A program made the translations under genes and the position numbers. Of a stretch of DNA of 64,000 nucleotides, positions 9,678 to 36,978 are shown piece by piece. The stretch's first letter is position 1. Every line of letters starts with the position of its first letter. This DNA is from Pseudomonas lalucatii (lineage in GTDB: Bacteria; Pseudomonadota; Gammaproteobacteria; Pseudomonadales; Pseudomonadaceae). Under the pieces are notes generated by a model that worked only from the letters and a program-made list of their open reading frames with translations, searched no databases and had not been told where the DNA came from. The stretch is taken from positions 806,001 through 870,000 of the forward strand of contig NZ_JADPMV010000002.1 of assembly GCF_018398425.1 (NCBI RefSeq), given 5' to 3'.

Positions 9678-9762
9678 GCCCCGGTGGCGGAACCGGTAGA
9701 CGCGGCGGATTCAAAATCCGTTTCCGAAAGGAGTGGGAGTTCGAGTCTCCCCCGGGGCACCA
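9678..9762 (+). tRNA. tRNA-Leu (anticodon CAA)
   Basis: An 85-nt class II tRNA with encoded CCA. The acceptor stem GCCCCGG pairs with CCGGGGC, there is a TTCAAAA anticodon loop closed by a GCGGA/TCCGT stem, a long variable arm and the T-arm GTTCGAGTC. It reads UUG codons. No direct repeat of its 3' end was seen nearby, so there is no sign that an integrative element uses it. Confidence 0.97.
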
Positions 9763-10102
9763 ATGATCCTTCCTGCCGCCTTACCCCTGCGTAAAGTGGC
9801 GCCGCGCAGTCGACCGGACTGCGACTCCCGCACCCCGAGTCCAGCTGGCACAGGCATCTCCGACAGCCTGCAAACAGCCTCGATCGACCGCGATTCTCGG
9901 GCCGCGCCGGGGTTGGCATTTGCCCAAAAGTTAGCGTAGAGTGATTGAACTGTGTTTGCATGGGTCGCCGTGAATCGTGACCTGATGCAGTAGATCCTCC
10001 AGATCCGCTACATCCCGCTCGACTTCTATTACTCTTTGCAACCAGTCTCAGTCCTCTATTATTTAGGGGCTGTCATCAACTCTAGTTTCAAGGAAATAAG
10101 AC
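9763..10102 (+). other. Gene-free interval: tRNA to cold-shock gene, probable csp leader
   Basis: 340 bp without a convincing gene. The right half is less GC-rich than the surroundings and leads into the cold-shock gene; a long untranslated leader is normal for CspA-family genes. A possible promoter is TTGCAA (10036-10041) with TATTAT (10057-10062), but the 15-bp spacer is short. No obvious terminator follows the tRNA. Confidence 0.4.
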
Positions 10103-10315
10103 ATGTCGAATCGTCAGAACGGTACCGTCAAGTGGTTTAACGACGAGAAAGGTTTTGGTTTTATCACTCCCGAAAGCGGTCCGGATCTGTTCGTGCACTT
10201 CCGCGCGATCGAAGGCAACGGCTTCAAGAGCCTGAAAGAAGGCCAGAAAGTCAGCTTCGTAGCTGTGCAAGGTCAAAAAGGCATGCAGGCTGACCAGGTT
10301 CAAGTCCTGGGCTAA
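10103..10315 (+). CDS. Cold-shock protein, CspA family
   Basis: A 70-residue single cold-shock domain protein that binds single-stranded RNA or DNA and acts as an RNA chaperone. RNA-binding motifs RNP1 (KGFGFI) and RNP2 (LFVHF) are intact. The ATG follows AAGGAAATAAG. It is monocistronic, ending in a strong terminator. Which csp paralogue it is (cold-inducible or constitutive) cannot be told from the sequence alone. Confidence 0.95.
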
Positions 10316-28279: not shown

Positions 28280-31200
28280 CTACCGGGCGAAGCGCCGCTC
28301 CAGGCCGCTGTAGCCCATGCCCACGGCCTTGTACACCTTGAGCTGCACCGGGATGCGCTCCTTCAGCGCCTCGACGTGGCTGATCACGCCGATCATCTTG
28401 CCGCTGGCGTTGAGGCTGTCGAGGGCGTCCAGGGCCACCTCCAGGGTCTCGCCGTCGAGGGTACCGAAGCCCTCGTCGAGGAACAGCGAGTCGATGCTGG
28501 TCTTGTGGCTGACCAGGTCGGACAGCGCCAGGGCCAGGGCCAGGCTGACCAGGAAGCTCTCGCCGCCGGACAGGGTGCGGGTGTCGCGGGCCACATCGGC
28601 CTGCCAGGTGTCGATCACCGCCAGCTCCAGCTCGCCGTCGCCCTTGCGCGCCAGCTGGTAGCGCCCGTGCAGGCGCTGCAGCTGCTGGTTGGCCAGGTAG
28701 ACCAGGTGATCGAGGGTCAGGCCCTGGGCGAAGCGGCGGTACTTGGCGCCGTCCGCCGAGCCGATCAGGCCGTTGAGCTGCTGCCACAGGTCGTAGTCGG
28801 CTCGCTTGTCGGCGATCGCCGCGAACAGCGCCTGCTGGCCCTGGCGGCGCGCATCGTCGCCCTGCAGCTGGGCGCGGATCTCGCCCCGGCGCTCGTTCAG
28901 GCGCTTCAGCTGCGCCGCCAGGGCCTGCAGCTGCTCGTCCAGCTCGCGCAACGCCAGGCTGCCGAGTGGCTCGGCGCACAGGCGCTGCAGCTGCTGCTCG
29001 GCGGCCAGGCGCAGGGCGGCGGCCTCGGTCAGCGCGGTGTCCAGACGGCGCTTGAGTTCGCCCAGGCGCTGGCGCTCCTGGTCGTCCAGCAGGGCAGCGC
29101 GGAACGCCTCGAGGTCGGCGAAGGGGCTGGCCTGCAGCGCACGGGACCAGGCATCTGCGCTCTCGGCCAGGCGCCGCTGCGCCTGCTCCAGTTGCGTGGC
29201 CTGGCCCTGCGCCTGGCCGTGCAGGGCATCGGCCTGACGCTGCCCCTGGGCCAGCGCCGCCTCGGCCGCCTGCAGGGCCTGCAGCGGGTGTTCGGCGTCA
29301 TCCGGCGGCGCCTGCTGCGGCGCACCGCTGGCCTGCCAGCGCGCCCGCCACTGCGCGGCCAGGGCCTCGGCCTCCTGCTGCAGGCGACGGGCTTCGCGCT
29401 CCTCGTCCTGCAGCTGCTGGTCACGCTGCTGGTCCTGCTGCCATTGCTGCCACTGCCGCTCGTGCTCGGCCAGCCAGGCTTCGCCGTCCTCCGGCAGCAC
29501 CGCGGCAAAGCCGGCGAGGCTGGCCAACAGCGCGGCGGCCTGGGCCGCGGCCTGTTGCCCCAGCTGCTGCAGACGCTGCTGCTGCTCGAGTCGGCGCTGG
29601 CCGGCATTGTCCAGGTCGCGCTGCACCAGGGCCTGCTGCCCCTCGGCCGCGGCCCAGGCCTTTTCGCAGGACTCACGCAGACGGGCAGCCCGCTGCACCT
29701 CGGCCTGGCAGGCCTCGACGGCGGACAAGCGCTCCTGCAATTCGCCGAGCGCCTGCTCATGGGCGCGCAGCTCCGCCGGCAACTCCGCGGCAGCGCTCAG
29801 CGCCAAGCCCTGCTCGGCCACCTGGCGCTGCCAGTCGGCGTCCAGCTGCCGGCCCTGGGCCTCGGCCTCGGCGCAGCGCGTACTCGCCTGTTCGGCCTGG
29901 GCCACGAGGCGGGCCAGTTCGTCACGCAAGGCCACGCCGTTCGCCTCCAGCAGCGCCAGGGCCTCGCGCCGCTCGGTCAACTGCTGTTGCGTGACGGAAA
30001 CGTCCAGCGCCTGGTAGCTGGCGATCGCCGGATGCTCGACGGCGCCGCACAGGGGGCAGGCCTCGCCGGGCTGCAGCTGGGCGCGATAGGCCTCCAGGGC
30101 CTGGATGCGCTGCTCCTGCAGCAGCAGCCGCTCCTTGTCGGCGACCTGCTGCTTGAGGTCCTTGTAGCGCTCGCGCAGCGCCCCTAGCTCGGCATCCTTG
30201 GCCGCCCGGCGCTGGCCCAGCTCGGCCAGTTGCGGTTGCAGCGCGGCGAGCTGGCTCTGCACCTGTTCCTGGGCACGCGCCAGCTGTTCCAGGCGGTCGA
30301 GGGCCCGCCCCTGCTGCTGCAAGCGTTGCCACTGATCCCGCAAGCCCGCCTCACTGGCGCCCCGCAGCAGCGCCTGCAGGGCAGCCTGCTGCTGGGTTTC
30401 AGCCTCGCGGGCGGCCTGCAGCTCGCGCTGGGCCTGGGCGAGCCGTTCGCCTTGCTGGCTCAGCTGGCCCCTCAAGGCCTCGCCAGCGGCGGCGGCGTCC
30501 TGCACCTGCCGCTGCGCCGCCGCCGTCTGCTCCGCCAGTTGCCGGCGCTGGGCGAACTCGGCGCGCCAGCCGCCGAGCAACTCGCCCAGGCGCCCACGCT
30601 GCGGTTGCCGGCCCAGGCGCGCCTGCACCTGGTGGCGCTGCTCGGCCAGCGCCGCCGCGCCGGCCTGTCGCCGGCCGGCGAGCTGGGCGGCATACTGGCT
30701 GGCCTGCCACAGGTTGCGGCTGGTCAGCACGACGCAGTCCTGCTGCTGGCGGTGGATGTCTTCCAGGCGCAGCTGAGCCTGCTGCAGATCCTCGCGAGCC
30801 TGTTGCCAGGCCCGATGCAGCGGTTGCAGGCGCGTCGCCGGCTCGCTCGCCACCAGGCGCTGCACCTGCGGCGCGGCATCGTCCAGGGCTTGGCGCGCCT
30901 GCTGCTCGCGCTCGACACTGTGGCGCTGCTGCTGCTCGGCACGGGCCAGCTCTTCGCGCCAGCGGCGTTGCGCCTGCAGCTGCTGCTGGCGCTCGCCGAG
31001 CGTCGCCTCCTCGGCCTGCAGCCGCGCGGCTTCGGCATCGAGCGCCGCGCGCTGCTCCTCGCCGAGCAGCTCGACGCCCTTGGCGCGACTCTCCAGCATC
31101 TCCAGTTCGTTGGCCGCGGCCCTGGTGCGCTCGTAGACCCGCTGGGAGATCTGCCCGTAGATATCGGTGCCGGTGAGTTCCTCCAGCAGCTCGGCGCGCT

Positions 31201-31699
31201 GGTTGGCACTGGCCTCGAGGAACGCGGCGAAGCCGCCCTGGGCCAGCAGCATGGACTTGGTGAAGCGCTCGAAATCCAGGCCGGTGAGGCGCTCGGTCTC
31301 GCGCAACTTCTCGTTGATCTTGTCGGTGAGGATCTGCCCGTCGGCCGCGGCCAGCTCCACCTTGGGCGCCTGCAGCGCGCCATCGGTCTTGTCGCGGGCG
31401 CGGCGCTGGCTCCAGAACGCGCGGTAGCCGACGCCCCTGACCTCGAACTCGACCTCGGCCAGACAGTCGGCGGTGTGCCGGGTCATCAGCTCGTTGCCGC
31501 CGGCCGACAGGCTGCTCATCCGCGGGGTGCGGTGGTACAGGGCCAGGCAGATGGCATCGAGCAGGGTGGTCTTGCCGGCCCCCGTCGGCCCGGTGATGGC
31601 GAACAGGCCGTTGCCGGCGAAGGGCTCGGCGGTGAAGTCCACCTTCCACTCGCCCTTGAGCGAATTGAGGTTCTTCAGGCGCAGGCTGAGGATTTTCAT
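28280..31699 (-). CDS. sbcC: Exonuclease subunit SbcC
   Basis: A 1139-residue SMC-like ATPase that with SbcD cleaves hairpins and protein-blocked DNA ends. Walker A GPTGAGKT is at 37-44; two long coiled coils flank the zinc-hook CPLC (Cys548, Cys551); the C-terminal ABC signature LSGGESFLVSLALALALSD and LDEGFGTLD complete the ATPase. I chose the ATG at 31699 (MKILSLRLKNLNSLKGEW), the family N-terminus, over upstream in-frame starts. Unusually, sbcD is not directly upstream: about 4 kb of foreign-looking DNA separates them, so sbcC now needs its own or a borrowed promoter. Confidence 0.97.
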   Translation of the reverse strand: MKILSLRLKNLNSLKGEWKVDFTAEPFAGNGLFAITGPTGAGKTTLLDAICLALYHRTPRMSSLSAGGNELMTRHTADCLAEVEFEVRGVGYRAFWSQRRARDKTDGALQAPKVELAAADGQILTDKINEKLRETERLTGLDFERFTKSMLLAQGGFAAFLEASANQRAELLEELTGTDIYGQISQRVYERTRAAANELEMLESRAKGVELLGEEQRAALDAEAARLQAEEATLGERQQQLQAQRRWREELARAEQQQRHSVEREQQARQALDDAAPQVQRLVASEPATRLQPLHRAWQQAREDLQQAQLRLEDIHRQQQDCVVLTSRNLWQASQYAAQLAGRRQAGAAALAEQRHQVQARLGRQPQRGRLGELLGGWRAEFAQRRQLAEQTAAAQRQVQDAAAAGEALRGQLSQQGERLAQAQRELQAAREAETQQQAALQALLRGASEAGLRDQWQRLQQQGRALDRLEQLARAQEQVQSQLAALQPQLAELGQRRAAKDAELGALRERYKDLKQQVADKERLLLQEQRIQALEAYRAQLQPGEACPLCGAVEHPAIASYQALDVSVTQQQLTERREALALLEANGVALRDELARLVAQAEQASTRCAEAEAQGRQLDADWQRQVAEQGLALSAAAELPAELRAHEQALGELQERLSAVEACQAEVQRAARLRESCEKAWAAAEGQQALVQRDLDNAGQRRLEQQQRLQQLGQQAAAQAAALLASLAGFAAVLPEDGEAWLAEHERQWQQWQQDQQRDQQLQDEEREARRLQQEAEALAAQWRARWQASGAPQQAPPDDAEHPLQALQAAEAALAQGQRQADALHGQAQGQATQLEQAQRRLAESADAWSRALQASPFADLEAFRAALLDDQERQRLGELKRRLDTALTEAAALRLAAEQQLQRLCAEPLGSLALRELDEQLQALAAQLKRLNERRGEIRAQLQGDDARRQGQQALFAAIADKRADYDLWQQLNGLIGSADGAKYRRFAQGLTLDHLVYLANQQLQRLHGRYQLARKGDGELELAVIDTWQADVARDTRTLSGGESFLVSLALALALSDLVSHKTSIDSLFLDEGFGTLDGETLEVALDALDSLNASGKMIGVISHVEALKERIPVQLKVYKAVGMGYSGLERRFAR

Positions 31700-31950
31700 G
31701 TCAGGGGGCGATGACCGTCGGGAAACGGCCATTCTGACATTGTTGCCGGGACCGCGCAGACCCCTCATGCGCCGAGCGATTGGCCAGGGCGATAAGGCCC
31801 ACAACAGGCCGGATAGACGAATGCAACCGCACTGACGGCAAGCTTGAGAAGCGATTCCTCACTGCTTGTGGGGAGCGTCCATATACCAGGCGGTTGCACT
31901 CAGCTCCTGCAACCGCCCAGCTATATTCTTTTCCGGGGGCAGATTGAATA
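31700..31950. other. Gene-free, inverted-repeat-rich interval upstream of sbcC
   Basis: 251 bp between the sbcC ATG and the LysR stop. It has no convincing gene. It holds a perfect 10-bp inverted repeat GGCGGTTGCA/TGCAACCGCC (31889-31898, 31908-31917), a further TGCAACCGC copy near 31820, and the left arm of a second repeat. It must supply any new sbcC promoter, but I could not identify one. Confidence 0.45.
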
Positions 31951-31971
31951 TTAAATAATTGATCTGCCCCC
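31935..31971. repeat. Inverted repeat across the LysR gene end
   Basis: Arms GGGGGCAGAT (31935-31944) and ATCTGCCCCC (31962-31971) enclose an AT-rich 17-nt loop that contains the LysR stop codon (31951-31953). The last LysR codons therefore lie in the repeat. It could be a terminator hairpin, although no T run follows on the minus strand, or a junction of the inserted segment. Confidence 0.55.
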
Positions 31972-32925
31972 TTTCCCCAAAGCCGGCACCCAGCTTTCCG
32001 CCCAGGTGTGGTTGGCACTTTCGCCCCGTTCAGCCAGGGCGCCGCTGAGAAAGTCGATGAACACACGGACCTTGGCGGGCAGGTAGTCGCGTTTGGGGTA
32101 GATGGCGAACACGCCGCTGCCTGGTTCCGGCGGGCGGAAGTATGGGTAGAGCGACACCAGGGTGCCACTGTCCAGTCCCTCTTTAGCAAGGAAGTGGGGC
32201 AGCTGGGCAAATCCCAGCCCGTCCGCGCACATGTATGCCATTGCCTCACCATCATCAGTTAAGTAACGGCGTTCCAGGTCATAGGGCAAGTACGCCCCCG
32301 TCTCATCTGGCAGGAAGATCGGCTGTAACTGCTGGGTTTCCTTGATGCGAAAGCCAATCCATGAATGCGCGTGAAAGTCTTCCCGGCAACCGGGCGCACC
32401 GTGCTCCTCCAGGTACCGGGGCGAGGCGCAGACCAGGAAATCCATTGGGCTGAGGCGTCGTGCCACCAGACGGCTGTCCTTCACGTAGCCGGTGCGCAGC
32501 GCCACATCAATGTCGTTGTCGATGATATCCACATGCAGGTCATTGATCTCAAGCTCCAGCCGGATCTCCGGGTACTGCAGGCAGAACGCCCGCAACAACG
32601 GGCGCAGATAGAGGTGACCGTAACAGACGGCAGAACTGATACGCAGGGTGCCGCCGGGTGAGCGGTTGATCTGCTTGAGTTCCTCCTCGCAGCCGTAAAG
32701 GTCCTGCAGCATCTTCCGTACCGTGTCAGCGTAGCGCTCGCCGGCTGCGGTAATCCGCAACTGCCGGGTTGAGCGCTGGAAGAGCGTCAGCCCCAACTGG
32801 GCCTCCAGGCGGCCAATGGCCTTGCTGACGGTGGACGGATCACTGCCACACGCCCTTGCCGCCGCCGCGAAACTGCCGCCATCACAGGTGGCGATAAAGA
32901 TTTCCAGTGACCGTAACTTATCCAT
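31951..32925 (-). CDS. LysR-family transcriptional regulator
   Basis: A 324-residue regulator: N-terminal winged helix-turn-helix (MDKLRSLEIFIATCDGGSFA, then AARACGSDPSTVSKAIGRLE) and a periplasmic-binding-like effector domain (about 90-300, GTLRISSAVCYGHLYLRPLL). It belongs to the CrgA/YafC-like group by general pattern. An in-frame ATG 11 codons upstream lies inside a palindrome, so I use 32925. It is divergent from the MFS-AhpD-like-membrane operon with a perfect LysR-type palindrome between, the classic arrangement for control of the neighbouring operon. The last residues (KGGRSII) come from the flanking repeat, suggesting a 3' end altered by insertion. Confidence 0.9.
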   Translation of the reverse strand: MDKLRSLEIFIATCDGGSFAAAARACGSDPSTVSKAIGRLEAQLGLTLFQRSTRQLRITAAGERYADTVRKMLQDLYGCEEELKQINRSPGGTLRISSAVCYGHLYLRPLLRAFCLQYPEIRLELEINDLHVDIIDNDIDVALRTGYVKDSRLVARRLSPMDFLVCASPRYLEEHGAPGCREDFHAHSWIGFRIKETQQLQPIFLPDETGAYLPYDLERRYLTDDGEAMAYMCADGLGFAQLPHFLAKEGLDSGTLVSLYPYFRPPEPGSGVFAIYPKRDYLPAKVRVFIDFLSGALAERGESANHTWAESWVPALGKGGRSII

Positions 32926-32948
32926 CGGCCGAGTGTAGCAACAAAGAA

Positions 32949-32967
32949 TCGTGAACATTATTCACGA
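32949..32967. promoter_or_regulatory. Perfect palindromic LysR-type operator
   Basis: TCGTGAA-CATTA-TTCACGA is a 19-bp perfect inverted repeat containing the T-N11-A pattern of LysR-type sites. It lies 24 bp before the LysR start and 101 bp before the MFS start in their shared divergent gap, so it is the likely recognition site of this regulator. Confidence 0.7.
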
Positions 32968-33067
32968 CTCTTTGGGACGGCAGGCCAATTCTCCCGGTTT
33001 TTCAGGCACCTAGAATTCAAGGCGCGTCTGATTAGCGACCGACCGCCAACCTATCTGGGAGAAACCG

Positions 33068-34279
33068 TTGAAAGACCGTCTGTTAAAGCAAATACCCGCC
33101 ACCAGCACCCTGGCCTATTGCCTTCTGGCATTTATTGCCATGGCAGGCCTTGCCTATATCAACTTCCTGCCCGGTGTCGTTAACGCGCTGGCAGGGGGTA
33201 TCGGATTCAGTGACGCCCAGGCCGGGCAGATAGTCGCACTCAACGGGTACGGCGGTCTGCTTGGCAGTGCCGTTGCGATCCTCCTGATACGTCGAGTGCA
33301 ATGGCGTTACGCCATGATGATATTTCTGGCGCTACTGACCATCGTTGACCTGAGCACGGCCTGGGTCGAAAACTACCCAATACTGCTTGGCTGGCGTTTT
33401 GGCGCCGGCGTGCTGGGCGGGCTCTGTGTCGGTATCGGGTTTGCAGTGCTGGCGCGTTTGAACAACCCCGACCGGGCGTTCGGCCTTCTGCTGTTCGTGC
33501 AGTTCAGCCTGGGGTCCGTTGTTGTCTATCTGTTGCCCGGTCTGGAAACCTCCTTAGGCACCCACGCTGTGTTCTATGTGATGGCCACCCTGGCCTTCCT
33601 GAGCCTGGTTTTTCTGCCGTTCTTGCCCGCCCTGCCCGCAAACAGCACCTCAGCTGCACCAGCCGGCCCACTGCCCGCCAACGCGGTGTTGCTGCTGTCG
33701 GCAATCCTCGGCTATCAGGCTGCCGCCAGTGGGATCTGGGCCTACGTGGGACTGATCGGCCGCGATGCGGGTCTGGCCGCCGAACCGGTCAGCCAATACA
33801 TAGCCGCCACCGGATTGCTGGGTCTGCTGGGCGCCATGCTGCCGGTGATCAGGAGCAATCGTTCTGGCCGGCTGTACTGGGTGATCGCCGGTATGGCCAT
33901 GTCGATCGCTGGCGCAGTCTTGTTGAGCTACGCCCGGTATACCGCTCTCTACGTGGTGGCGATGGCGCTGCTGTTCTTCGCCTGGCCAGCGGTGCAGTCC
34001 TTCCTGCTGGCGGTCAGCGCGGACATGGACAACACCGGGCGACTGTCTGCCGTTGCCGGCCTGGCCGCCTATGCCGGGTTGGCCTCCGGCCCCCTGTTCG
34101 CCGCCAGCCTGCTCGATAGCGGTAGCTTTGCAGTGGTGCTCTACAACTGTGCAGCGACCTTCTTCGTGAGCTTCCTTCTGCTGTTTCGCCCCGTTCAGGC
34201 CAAGGAATCCCTGCTGGGCGCGGTATCGCTCTCGCAACAGCTGGCCACAAGCCAAAGCGCCGATTCGTCTAACGCCTAA
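33068..34279 (+). CDS. MFS transporter (YbfB/YjiJ-like)
   Basis: A 403-residue, 12-TM major facilitator superfamily protein; the overall look (AYCLLAFIAMAGLAYINFLPG in TM1, GQIVALNGYGGLLGSA in TM2) resembles YbfB/YjiJ-type transporters. The substrate is unknown. It starts with TTG at 33068, preceded by GGGAG at 7 nt; no better start exists. First gene of a three-gene operon opposite the LysR gene. Base composition and codon use are less GC-rich than in the flanking sbc genes, in keeping with transfer. A GTCTAAC near its end resembles half of an integron attC site, but no partner is seen. Confidence 0.85.
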   Translation: MKDRLLKQIPATSTLAYCLLAFIAMAGLAYINFLPGVVNALAGGIGFSDAQAGQIVALNGYGGLLGSAVAILLIRRVQWRYAMMIFLALLTIVDLSTAWVENYPILLGWRFGAGVLGGLCVGIGFAVLARLNNPDRAFGLLLFVQFSLGSVVVYLLPGLETSLGTHAVFYVMATLAFLSLVFLPFLPALPANSTSAAPAGPLPANAVLLLSAILGYQAAASGIWAYVGLIGRDAGLAAEPVSQYIAATGLLGLLGAMLPVIRSNRSGRLYWVIAGMAMSIAGAVLLSYARYTALYVVAMALLFFAWPAVQSFLLAVSADMDNTGRLSAVAGLAAYAGLASGPLFAASLLDSGSFAVVLYNCAATFFVSFLLLFRPVQAKESLLGAVSLSQQLATSQSADSSNA

Positions 34280-34305
34280 ACCCTCCATCAAAGAAGGCTA
34301 CCAAC

Positions 34306-34863
34306 ATGATCCGATATCTCTTCAACAGGATGCTGATGGCCATGCACCGGCGATACGACTACGACGTTCGCTACCTGCAGGAAATCCTGCAAACCGACCT
34401 GCCGGCCTTCATGAAATACCTGGGCTTTCAGGTGATGGCCGCGCATTCCGCGAAGATGCCCGCGGAGCCGCTGTTTGCCGCCCGGATACGCGCAATCATC
34501 TGGGACGATTGCGGGCCCTGCACCCAACTGGTGGTGAACATGGCGCTGGAAGCCAAGGTGAGCCCGGATCGAGTCCGCGCCATGGTGAATATGGACTTGA
34601 ACAGCCTGCCCGAGCACACCGCCCTGGTGGTCCGCTTTGCCGAACTGGTGCTGGCCCACAACCCGGAAGCGGACGAGCTGCGGGAACAGATCCGCGCCCT
34701 GTGGGGCACCAAAGGGCTGATCGCCATCGCCTACAGCATCAGCGCCTCCCGGGTCTACCCGGCATTGAAATACACCTTGGGGTACGGACATGCCTGCAGC
34801 CGTGTCCAGATCCACGATCACACTCTGGTACCCAGCCGGTCGACGGAGGCACAGCATGGTTAA
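34306..34863 (+). CDS. AhpD-like/carboxymuconolactone decarboxylase-fold protein (putative)
   Basis: A 185-residue, mostly helical soluble protein. The stretch IWDDCGPCTQLVVNMAL (about residues 65-81) contains a CxxC preceded by acidic residues, as in the redox site of AhpD-like proteins, but the usual His after the second Cys is not in place. The assignment to this fold is therefore tentative. It starts 26 nt after the MFS gene and overlaps the next gene by 8 nt, so the three are an operon. If it is a redox protein, the operon could handle a reactive or aromatic compound exported or imported by the MFS protein. Confidence 0.6.
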   Translation: MIRYLFNRMLMAMHRRYDYDVRYLQEILQTDLPAFMKYLGFQVMAAHSAKMPAEPLFAARIRAIIWDDCGPCTQLVVNMALEAKVSPDRVRAMVNMDLNSLPEHTALVVRFAELVLAHNPEADELREQIRALWGTKGLIAIAYSISASRVYPALKYTLGYGHACSRVQIHDHTLVPSRSTEAQHG

Positions 34864-35281
34864 GCAACTGATTACCGGGACGGCTGTGGTACTTGGACTG
34901 GCCTCGCTTGCGAACGGCCTGTTTATGCTGGTCGCGCCCGAATCCTGGTATTGGAGCGTGCCCGGCGTGCCGGTGAGGGGATTGTTCAATCAGCACTTTC
35001 TACGGGACATCGGAATCCAGTACCTGCTGATGGGCGTGGCTTTTGTCTATGGCGCCGTGGACAGCCGGTATCGACTATTGCTGTGGTGGCTACCCACCGC
35101 CTGGCTGGTCGGCCACGCGATCTTCCACGTATGGGAAGTCGCGGTGGGCCTGTGCGGCCCCCAATACCTGATCGTGGACTTTGCCGGGGTGACTTTGCCA
35201 GCGCTGATAAGTCTTGGTTTGGTTTATGGTCACTACCGAGTACGGGGCAAGAGTAACCAGCCTTCCCCAGTCGCGCCTTGA
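34856..35281 (+). CDS. Four-TM membrane protein of unknown function
   Basis: A 141-residue membrane protein with four hydrophobic segments (about 5-25, 48-66, 70-92, 105-125) and the stretch [19 protein letters not shown] between the first two. The topology resembles DoxX-like or DUF-type small membrane proteins, but I do not recognise a named family. The ATG at 34856 has GGAGG 7 nt upstream and overlaps the preceding gene. It ends right where the integrase fragment begins, so its last residues ([10 protein letters not shown]) may be altered by the junction. Confidence 0.75.
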
Positions 35282-35754
35282 TTGCGAGCCAGAAGGATCG
35301 CACCACCTTGCTGCCGTCCTCGCTGATGACTCCTCTGCTGGAGCGCAGGCAGCGCATGTTCGAGGCCTGGAAGCAGCAGGACAGTTTCTATCAGCCCCCT
35401 GTCAGCCTGCCCTTTGCGCTGCCGCGCAAGTACCCGAATGCGGCCCGCTCGTTCGAGTGGCAGTGGCTGTTCCCCGCCACCGGCCTGTGCATGGATGAGG
35501 ACGGCACGCTGGTGCGCCATCACATCCATGTCAGCTCCCAGAAGGCGGTAAAACAGGCGGTGCGGCGTTCCGGCCTGCATAAGCCGGCCGGCTGCCGCAC
35601 CTTCCGCCATAGCTCTGCCACCGAGCTGCTGCGCCGCGGCAGCGATATCCGCACGGTGCAAACCTTGCTGGGCCACGCCGACGTGCGCACTACACAGATC
35701 TATACCCATGTGTTGGGCCAGGCCTTTGCAGGCGTGCAGAGCCCGTTGGGCTAG
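35281..35754 (+). pseudogene. intI: Integron integrase IntI, C-terminal fragment
   Basis: About 157 residues matching the C-terminal half of integron integrases, a tyrosine recombinase subfamily that moves gene cassettes between attI and attC sites. Diagnostic is the IntI-specific insert, here [20 protein letters not shown], absent from other tyrosine recombinases. Homology begins abruptly at KDRTTLLP; the N-terminal DNA-binding domain and first catalytic Arg are missing and replaced by the unrelated membrane-protein gene. The remaining catalytic region reads [13 protein letters not shown] (box II His changed to Arg) and TTQIYTHVL with the nucleophile Tyr. Not functional. Its stop is 3 bp from the convergent sbcD stop. 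Confidence 0.88.
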
Positions 35755-35757
35755 GGC

Positions 35758-36978
35758 TCAATCACGCTCGCTCTGCACCGTTTCCAATACCTCGCGATAA
35801 AGTCCCTGCAGCCGCTGCGCGTCAGCTTCGTCCAGTTGCTCGTGCTGCAGGCGCCGGGCGAACACCTCCTCGACGCTGAGCTCGTCCAGGGTCTCGCGGG
35901 CCTGGACGCGCAGGCCCGGGCCGGCCGAACCGCGCTCGCGGCGGATGCGCAGCACCTCCACCGGCAGGCCCTCGCACAGGGCGGCGACCCGCTGCTGCAG
36001 GTCGCTCAGGTAGTCGTCACCGCTGACCCGCACCTCCAGCCACACCGGCCGCTCGACGCTGCCCTGGGCGGCCGCCTCGGCGATCCCCTGCTCCAGTTCC
36101 TTGAGCGAGCCGGCCACCGACAGCAGCGCCTGGAAGCGCGGCACCGGCAGCGCCCGTACCGCACCCAGGCCGTCGCCGTCCAGCTCGACCAGCAGCACTT
36201 CCTTCTGCTGGCGGGCCTCGTCGAAGCTCAAGGGAATCGGCGAGCCGCAGTAGCGGATATGCTCCAGGCCGCCGACCTTCTGCGGCCGGTGGATGTGGCC
36301 CAGGGCGATATAGGCGGCCGGCGGGAAGGCGCTGGTGGGGAAGGCCTCCAGGCTGCCGACGTAGATCTCGCGAACCGACTCGCTGGCGCTGGCGCCGACC
36401 GTGGTCAGATGGCCGGTGGCGATGATCGGCAGCGCGCCGCCCAGCTCCTCGCGCCTGGTCTCGGCCAGGGCGTGGAGGTCGCGGTAGTGCGCCTGGATCG
36501 CCTGCTGCAGGGCGCCCTGCTTGTCCGCCGCGCTCTGCCCGGCCTGGCTCAGCAGCACGTCCCGCGGACGAATGAAGGGGATGCCGCAGAGAATGGCGCC
36601 GGGCCGGCCATCGCGGCGCTCGAGCACCAGCAGCTGCTCGCCGAGGTCCGTGCATACGCCGGGGATCACCCGGGTACCCAGGCGCTCCAGCAGGGTCTTG
36701 CTCTCGCCGAGCATGGCCACCGAGTCGTGGTTGCCGCCGAGCACCACCAGCGCGCAGCCGGTCCCGCTCAACTCGACGACGAAGCGGTTGTACTGCTCGC
36801 GGGCATAGCTGGGCGGCGCACCGGTGTCGAACACGTCGCCGGCGATCAGCAGCGCGTCGACGCCGTGCTCGCGCACCTGCTCGACCAGCCAGGCACAGAA
36901 GGCCGCATGCTCGGCCTGGCGGGTCTTGCCCATGAAATGCTGGCCGAGGTGCCAGTCGGAGGTGTGGAGGATGCGCAT
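35758..36978 (-). CDS. sbcD: Exonuclease subunit SbcD
   Basis: A 406-residue Mre11-like metallophosphoesterase: nuclease half of SbcCD, which opens hairpins and trims blocked ends. Metal motifs are present in order: MRILHTSDWHLG, AGDVFDTGAPP, LGGNHDS, ATGHLTT and ALGHIH. The C-terminal capping region is complete. I chose the ATG at 36978, which begins the family sequence, 9 nt after the Lrp gene stop. The gene that should follow it, sbcC, is displaced about 4 kb by the intI-containing insert. Confidence 0.96.
   Translation of the reverse strand: MRILHTSDWHLGQHFMGKTRQAEHAAFCAWLVEQVREHGVDALLIAGDVFDTGAPPSYAREQYNRFVVELSGTGCALVVLGGNHDSVAMLGESKTLLERLGTRVIPGVCTDLGEQLLVLERRDGRPGAILCGIPFIRPRDVLLSQAGQSAADKQGALQQAIQAHYRDLHALAETRREELGGALPIIATGHLTTVGASASESVREIYVGSLEAFPTSAFPPAAYIALGHIHRPQKVGGLEHIRYCGSPIPLSFDEARQQKEVLLVELDGDGLGAVRALPVPRFQALLSVAGSLKELEQGIAEAAAQGSVERPVWLEVRVSGDDYLSDLQQRVAALCEGLPVEVLRIRRERGSAGPGLRVQARETLDELSVEEVFARRLQHEQLDEADAQRLQGLYREVLETVQSERD

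Follow-up and report, generated by a model that had tools for sequence, protein, structure and literature searches.

What lies between sbcD and sbcC in Pseudomonas lalucatii, and how did it come to be there? In the 64-kb window analysed here (the whole stretch of DNA, positions 806,001 to 870,000 of contig NZ_JADPMV010000002.1, numbered from its first letter), these two genes are separated by a gap of 4.06 kb (31700–35757), which ends next to sbcD in the 3' half of an integron integrase gene, intI. We propose, with a probability of about 0.85, that a sedentary chromosomal integron once resided between sbcD and sbcC and that the locus is what its decay has left. The identity of the integrase fragment and the integrons found at the same site in related genomes are among the evidence for this proposal.

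An integron integrase remnant next to sbcD

Both genes flanking the gap are located on the minus strand, and each gave a whole-protein match above the curated NCBIfam cut-offs.

28280–31699, minus strand: sbcC (NCBIfam PRK10246, E 5e-281), with its ATG at 31697–31699.
35758–36978, minus strand: sbcD (NCBIfam PRK10966, E 1.5e-186), with its stop codon at 35758–35760.
35293–35754, plus strand: intI remnant, residues 168–321 of the orthologous integrase of genome G159 less one codon, N-terminal half absent.

The open reading frame (ORF) at 35278–35754 (plus strand) matched the integron integrase family TIGR02249 with an E value of 4.1e-53 over profile positions 158–312 of 315, while its matches to the Xer profiles were far weaker (XerD, E 9e-20; XerC, E 7e-19). 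The best match among solved structures was IntI4 (2a3v, E 2.8e-33), and the KYPNA stretch is visible in this alignment. The start of the ORF overlaps the stop of the preceding gene, which encodes a protein of 141 amino acids (aa), and integrase homology first begins at 35293, corresponding to residue 168 of the 321-aa G159 integrase; the N-terminal part of the latter had no match anywhere in the 64-kb window (tblastn). One codon is missing from the remnant, and His is replaced by Arg at residue 270, in the HxxRH box, where the aligned residue of IntI4 is His 267. The fragment has the family scores and the KYPNA stretch of an IntI and lacks the complete catalytic set and the N-terminal domain. 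Since the N-terminal half is absent, and with it the first catalytic Arg, the remnant should not work as a recombinase.

From sbcC to sbcD, the order of features is the sbcC start, a -10-like motif, a 112-bp repeat, a 26-bp repeat, lysR, three genes on the plus strand, an 11-bp junction, the 3' half of intI, 3 bp, and the sbcD stop. The GC content calculated in 500-bp windows was 0.58–0.64 in the insert versus 0.65–0.76 in the remainder of the 26–42 kb region, and 0.68 in the 500-bp window joining the IntI piece to sbcD. At third codon positions, GC was 0.70–0.81 in the four genes of the insert, 0.83 in the IntI piece, and 0.92 in sbcC and sbcD. The original prediction, made from the letters alone, had described sbcD and sbcC held apart by about 4 kb, a less GC-rich insert with a LysR gene (31951–32958) and a three-gene operon (33068–35281), and the C-terminal half of an IntI, not an ordinary XerC/D, with its KYPNA insert and its stop (35752–35754) 3 bp from that of sbcD; all of this was confirmed.

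Integrons at the same site in related genomes

A sample of the genus comprising 398 Pseudomonas congeners, the genome of P. lalucatii included, was searched for relatives of the fragment. Integrases of this clade were found in 12 congeners besides P. lalucatii, with 77–90% identity to the fragment. In six of them (G159, G290, G223, G198, G085 and G347) intI adjoins sbcD, and in the four with both genes in reach (G159, G223, G085 and G347) sbcC lies on the far side and an array of attC sites fills the gap; in G290 and G198, sbcC is on another contig. Five of these six intI copies are of full length and without a stop, and the sixth, in G085, is interrupted, being about 144 bp above the normal length with stops in all frames. 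Among contigs of named species, sbcD lies beside intI in P. alcaliphila and P. oleovorans, and both sbcD and sbcC flank the intI of P. mendocina FFL34, which matches as two blocks 143 bp apart. The nearest relative by SbcD, G159 (91% identity), carries a whole integron at this site with a similar spacing between intI and sbcD. The other six congeners have intI elsewhere: G103, G201, G308 and G401 share one flank; the flank in G008 is the same as in P. sp. P818, P. composti and the second copy of G198; and in G185, intI lies beside the gene that follows sbcD, sbcD itself being about 16 kb off.

The arrangement of sbcD and sbcC was surveyed in 47 genomes (P. lalucatii, the 12 IntI carriers and 34 other congeners; sbcD cut-off E 1e-60). 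An sbcD hit was obtained in 37 of them, all of which also had sbcC, and ten had no sbcD hit at the cut-off. Among the 34 judgeable genomes, the two matches are no more than 50 bp apart in 26 and are split on one contig in eight (P. lalucatii itself, designated G000, as well as G159, G223, G012, G347, G085, G001 and G185); the genes are on different contigs in the three that could not be judged (G198, G008 and G290). The two genes are usually adjacent, and the comparison of relatives envisaged in the original prediction revealed both an intact sbcD–sbcC in some and intI with an attC array at the same site in others.

Parallel decay was observed in G012, in which the attI region and about 11 intI codons match between sbcD and sbcC (locus L201, about 9740–10135), with an IS110-type ORF nearby; the remainder of intI was not found there. 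In G001 and G185 (loci L202 and L203) the gap is filled by other genes, over about 8.5 and 12.3 kb, and gave no hit for IntI or attC; a split between sbcD and sbcC therefore does not by itself prove an integron.

Probable loss of the attC array and attI

A covariance model of attC was built from 23 candidate sites of relatives, in which these sites are about 75 bp long. The candidates came from a loose pattern scan that returned 28 sequences, five of them duplicates from one contig; a strict scan requiring 7-base ends missed even the sites of real arrays and was replaced by the loose scan and the model. Elsewhere, across 27 other loci, the model gave 99 hits at E≤0.1, of which 76 lay outside the model-building set and a few were antisense or near-duplicates. 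The 64-kb window yielded no hit at E≤10, and the structural search for attC foreseen by the original prediction thus returned no site. The match of the insert to the stretch upstream of intI in G159 is limited to 11 bases (E 0.6), and an Rfam scan gave a single weak unrelated match (E 0.066). Of a complete integron, the locus has neither attI beside intI nor at least one attC, and what it shares with relatives is residence at their integron site.

A probable imported block in place of the cassettes

Most of the insert is occupied by a block of four genes, which reaches the intI remnant through a short junction.

31951–32958, minus strand: LysR-family regulator (Pfam LysR_substrate 2.5e-35, HTH_1 5.7e-20).
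33068–34279, plus strand: major facilitator superfamily (MFS) transporter (Pfam MFS_1 2e-15; 84% to a Marinobacter salexigens protein).
34306–34863, plus strand: AhpD/carboxymuconolactone decarboxylase (CMD)-like protein (Pfam CMD below cut-off, E 0.034).
34856–35281, plus strand: 141-aa protein, last gene of the block (orthologs of 56–67% at the same place in loci L190, L191 and L193).
35282–35292, no strand: junction of the block with intI, aligned with four intI genes.

The LysR protein is 70–81% identical to relatives located beside the same MFS gene in L190, L191, L192 and L194. The CMD-like protein is 88% identical to its counterpart in Marinobacter salexigens, and its CGPC motif is invariant in a 21-sequence alignment. 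Its AlphaFold model (mean predicted local distance difference test, pLDDT, of 83) had as the top ten PDB rows CMD/AhpD or putative antioxidant-defence proteins, with E values of 0.07–0.4, none below 0.001, and template modelling (TM) scores of about 0.5. No Pfam match to the 141-aa protein was obtained even at E 10. The block may be a regulated efflux or oxidant-detoxification operon.

Carriers of the block were sought in the order; of the 390 genomes searched, 10, P. lalucatii included, pass E 1e-60 for the MFS protein. The gene order recurs in other families: all four genes, in conserved order and orientation, are present in G041 and G994, three of four in G829 and G844, and two in G1111. 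For the MFS protein, E 1e-30 is reached by no more than three others of the 398 congeners, with 31–33% identity; P0081 and P0109, which bear the name Pseudomonas, are 56–58% identical and show that the genus has more distant homologs. Among 369 genomes of the class, one distant MFS match besides that of P. lalucatii was found at E 1e-40. On plasmids, the best matches to the MFS and CMD-like proteins had 34% and 33% identity, and no close copy of either was found.

One could suppose that the block is a cassette group captured by the integron, with attC decayed beyond recognition, since it occupies the cassette position of relatives and lysR has the orientation of a cassette. However, three of the four genes point opposite to the cassette direction, and a divergent regulator plus operon is unlike cassette anatomy. 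The same block occurs, whole or partial, in five other genomes of the order (L190–L194), where the attC model had no hit at E 0.1, and cassette capture leaves the loss of intI codons 1–167 unexplained. This explanation is hence quite unlikely. Given the absence of attC hits in the window and the recurrence of these genes as a unit in other members of the order, the block is best regarded as a module of other Pseudomonadales, not a cassette and not integron-borne. The original prediction, in which an integron or integron-linked element entered the locus and later lost the 5' end of intI and attI, stands as far as relatives keep intI and attC arrays here, and fails in linking the LysR block to the integron.

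Insertion sequence remnants next to sbcC

Two remnants of insertion sequences (IS) are located at the sbcC end of the insert. They were overlooked in the first inventory of its content, which was otherwise correct in listing the integrase remnant, the LysR gene and the operon.

31778–31889, plus strand: IS1111-attC-type right-end remnant, noncoding region, 112 bp (92% to a stretch downstream of an IS110-family transposase in L079 of G159).
31893–31918, plus strand: IS30-family (ISPa59-like) right terminal-repeat remnant, 26 bp, identical to copies next to an IS30 transposase.

In relatives (L079, L039, L085, L098 and L108), though not in the window, the noncoding region follows an IS110/IS1111-type transposase, the family being scored for the L079 protein only. 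When 12 copies of the right end were aligned, the sequence TTGTTA, an attC end, was abutted in 8 of the 11 other copies and near variants of it in three, while the window copy abuts the IS30 scrap, not an attC end (TTGTTAGG). Because a longer relic of such an element lies at the same place in G159, beside sbcC and after a similar sequence upstream of it (L079:8706–8910), the insertion would predate the divergence of the two genomes. A search of the P. lalucatii genome for the transposase returned only fragments at three places and one distant relative.

The possibility that the 112-bp repeat is itself an attC was considered on account of plasmid hits located just after cassette genes. It was rejected, as neither strand folds better than shuffled sequences (z 0.3 and 0.7) and in the alignments the attC ends just where the repeat starts. 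A reading of solo copies of the noncoding region as non-autonomous elements was not supported either; their left ends vary, and the search was biased to right ends.

The 26-bp piece is identical to the sequence just past the stop of an IS30 transposase in two copies on a P. rhodesiae plasmid (L209), and it also adjoins a transposase fragment in L040. Positions 31889–31892 may be the left tip of an IS30-family element. A transposase between terminal repeats, as in a complete element, is absent, with only the 26-bp end left; the gene was found neither in the window nor in the genome, the genome search having been run without a positive control. Next to this piece, a near-perfect inverted repeat (31935–31971) extends across the lysR stop and occurs once in the genome; it is a possible terminator. 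The region 31890–31985 folds into two hairpins (z -5.7).

Expression of sbcC

Six relatives with contiguous genes were checked, and in every one the stop of sbcD and the ATG of sbcC share bases in the sequence ATGA. This overlap is gone in P. lalucatii, where the 3' end of sbcD is unlike that of relatives with contiguous genes. A possible promoter signal precedes sbcC.

31730–31739, minus strand: -10-like motif TGTCAGAATG, beginning 40 bp before the sbcC ATG, a putative separate promoter of this gene.

A motif of the form TGnCA(G/C)AAT(G/A), starting 38–46 bp upstream of the sbcC ATG, was found in all nine split loci aligned, and in six contiguous loci the equivalent stretch is sbcD coding sequence. 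A strict sigma-70 promoter scan of the region found none. The earlier suggestion that sbcC is cut off from the sbcD promoter holds in that the two genes are uncoupled; since the -10-like motif is common to all nine split loci, its being left without a promoter is unlikely, and separate transcription of sbcC is likelier than a loss of expression.

Proposed history and its alternatives

In the ancestral layout, as seen in relatives, intI would have been aimed at sbcD, with the two stops close together, attI upstream of intI, and the cassettes on the opposite strand toward sbcC. An IS1111-attC-type element would have entered an attC next to sbcC and have shed its transposase by the time of the divergence from G159, with which P. 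lalucatii pairs in the SbcD tree (support 94/99). An IS30-family element would have landed against the right end of the former and collapsed to a terminal scrap, and the LysR/MFS/AhpD-like/141-aa module, coming from another gammaproteobacterium, would have replaced attI, all cassettes and intI codons 1–167. Two parts of the locus are probably functional today: this module, as a regulated operon of the efflux or detoxification type, and sbcC, transcribed on its own.

Several observations weigh against this history. The IntI remnant contains no stop codon and its lineage-specific changes are few, 3 nonsynonymous and 11 synonymous, which is compatible with a recent truncation and by itself no proof of decay; such codon-change counts were set aside as uninformative. 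The IS30 piece is no longer than 26 bp. No matching repeat was noticed by eye at the right junction, and no genome with the module at the sbcD–sbcC site was seen; the order of events and the vehicle are what we infer. In the IntI tree (20 rows, midpoint-rooted, with G085, FFL34 and G401 left out), integrases at sbcDC do not form one clade: two changes are required, well-supported branches force them, and 0% of bootstrap trees have one. Residence at sbcDC is therefore not one unbroken IntI lineage, and at least one further move of the integron, to this site or away from it, would have occurred. The split also takes two changes in the SbcD tree, with 34% of bootstrap trees allowing one, and one or more origins are possible. 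Moreover, G103, G201, G308 and G401, which rank just behind G159 in SbcD similarity, have contiguous sbcDC and intI elsewhere.

The last of these points and the lack of a single IntI clade also favour the scenario that a single mobile element brought in both the integron fragment and the LysR block and that no integron ever resided at this locus in this lineage. We consider it improbable, since G159, the closest genome, has its whole integron here, with the same kind of intI–sbcD spacing and the IS relic at the same place on the sbcC side. As for an ordinary XerC/D-type recombinase piece in a split unconnected to integrons, the C-terminal boxes are common to tyrosine recombinases and some splits (G001, G185) hold other genes, but the family scores given above, the KYPNA stretch and the 77–90% identity to IntI genes, many of which adjoin attC arrays, refute it almost completely.

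Two Aeromonas contigs, from A. molluscorum and A. tecta (L100 and L101), encode an IntI 84% identical to the G159 integrase and placed among the Pseudomonas rows of the IntI tree, a position suggestive of transfer between genera; two stops are present in the A. tecta copy.

Other integron traces in the genome

A second intI is present in the same genome (C2:610531–611616; L042 10029–11222), disrupted by about 135 bp of inserted sequence with an in-frame TAA, the stop lying between two stop-free halves. The interruptions of intI in G085 (L086 3672–4772) and FFL34 (L108 10001–11097), about 143–144 bases long, resemble this insertion in size. The two halves and the window fragment account for the three matches of integron strength among 11 in the genome, and no working integrase was seen in it. 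The attC model also had hits in four other loci of this genome: two, with another IS1111-attC relic, in L042, and further ones in L091, L092 and L094, which contain IS1111-attC scraps and no IntI match.

Significance and comparison with known systems

Integron decay is already well known, and the window is a local example of it; decayed integrons being common, the window itself is ordinary, and what may matter is the site. No paper on integrons at sbcD–sbcC was found by title or abstract, most subscription papers being outside the literature covered. DNA hairpins are substrates of the SbcCD nuclease, and attC sites behave as such hairpins. As a long shot, sbcD–sbcC could be a favoured home for integrons because uncoupling the two genes might change the dose of a nuclease that would erase their own attC sites. 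If this were true, the benefit would be gone once the integrase and the array die, as here and in G012, and the split and the separate sbcC promoter would remain as a scar. An integron inside the operon of a hairpin nuclease would be a natural test of whether SbcCD limits integrons; a review states that SbcCD could delete DNA structures that are too stable, folded attC among them (PMC8946536).

Among the insertion sequences, the IS30-family remnant shares 26 identical bases of the right terminal repeat with ISPa59, a name taken from plasmid annotation, and is without a transposase in the window. The noncoding region of IS1111-attC elements, such as ISPst6 and ISKpn4, is reported to give a target-finding seekRNA (PMC11187229). 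The elements in relatives are similar, having an IS110-family transposase with a downstream noncoding region and the right end against an attC end, whereas in P. lalucatii 112 bp of the right end are left and the transposase and the target attC are gone.

Chromosomal integrons are named in P. stutzeri, P. alcaligenes and P. mendocina in part of an earlier account (PMC3108266). The IntI clade studied here is common to contigs of P. mendocina, P. alcaliphila and P. oleovorans, with attC of about 75 bp in relatives; unlike those integrons, only the 3' half of intI remains in P. lalucatii. About one third of intI genes were pseudogenes in an early survey, as one of its passages reports (PMC2426708). 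A close parallel is the Xanthomonas chromosomal integron downstream of ilvD, described as mostly vertically inherited; frameshifts, stops or large deletions have knocked out many of its integrases, and attC clusters are stranded elsewhere (PMC12444791). Both cases combine a conserved housekeeping site with integrase decay, but the site in pseudomonads is sbcD–sbcC, and in P. lalucatii the whole array has given way to an unrelated operon in its space.

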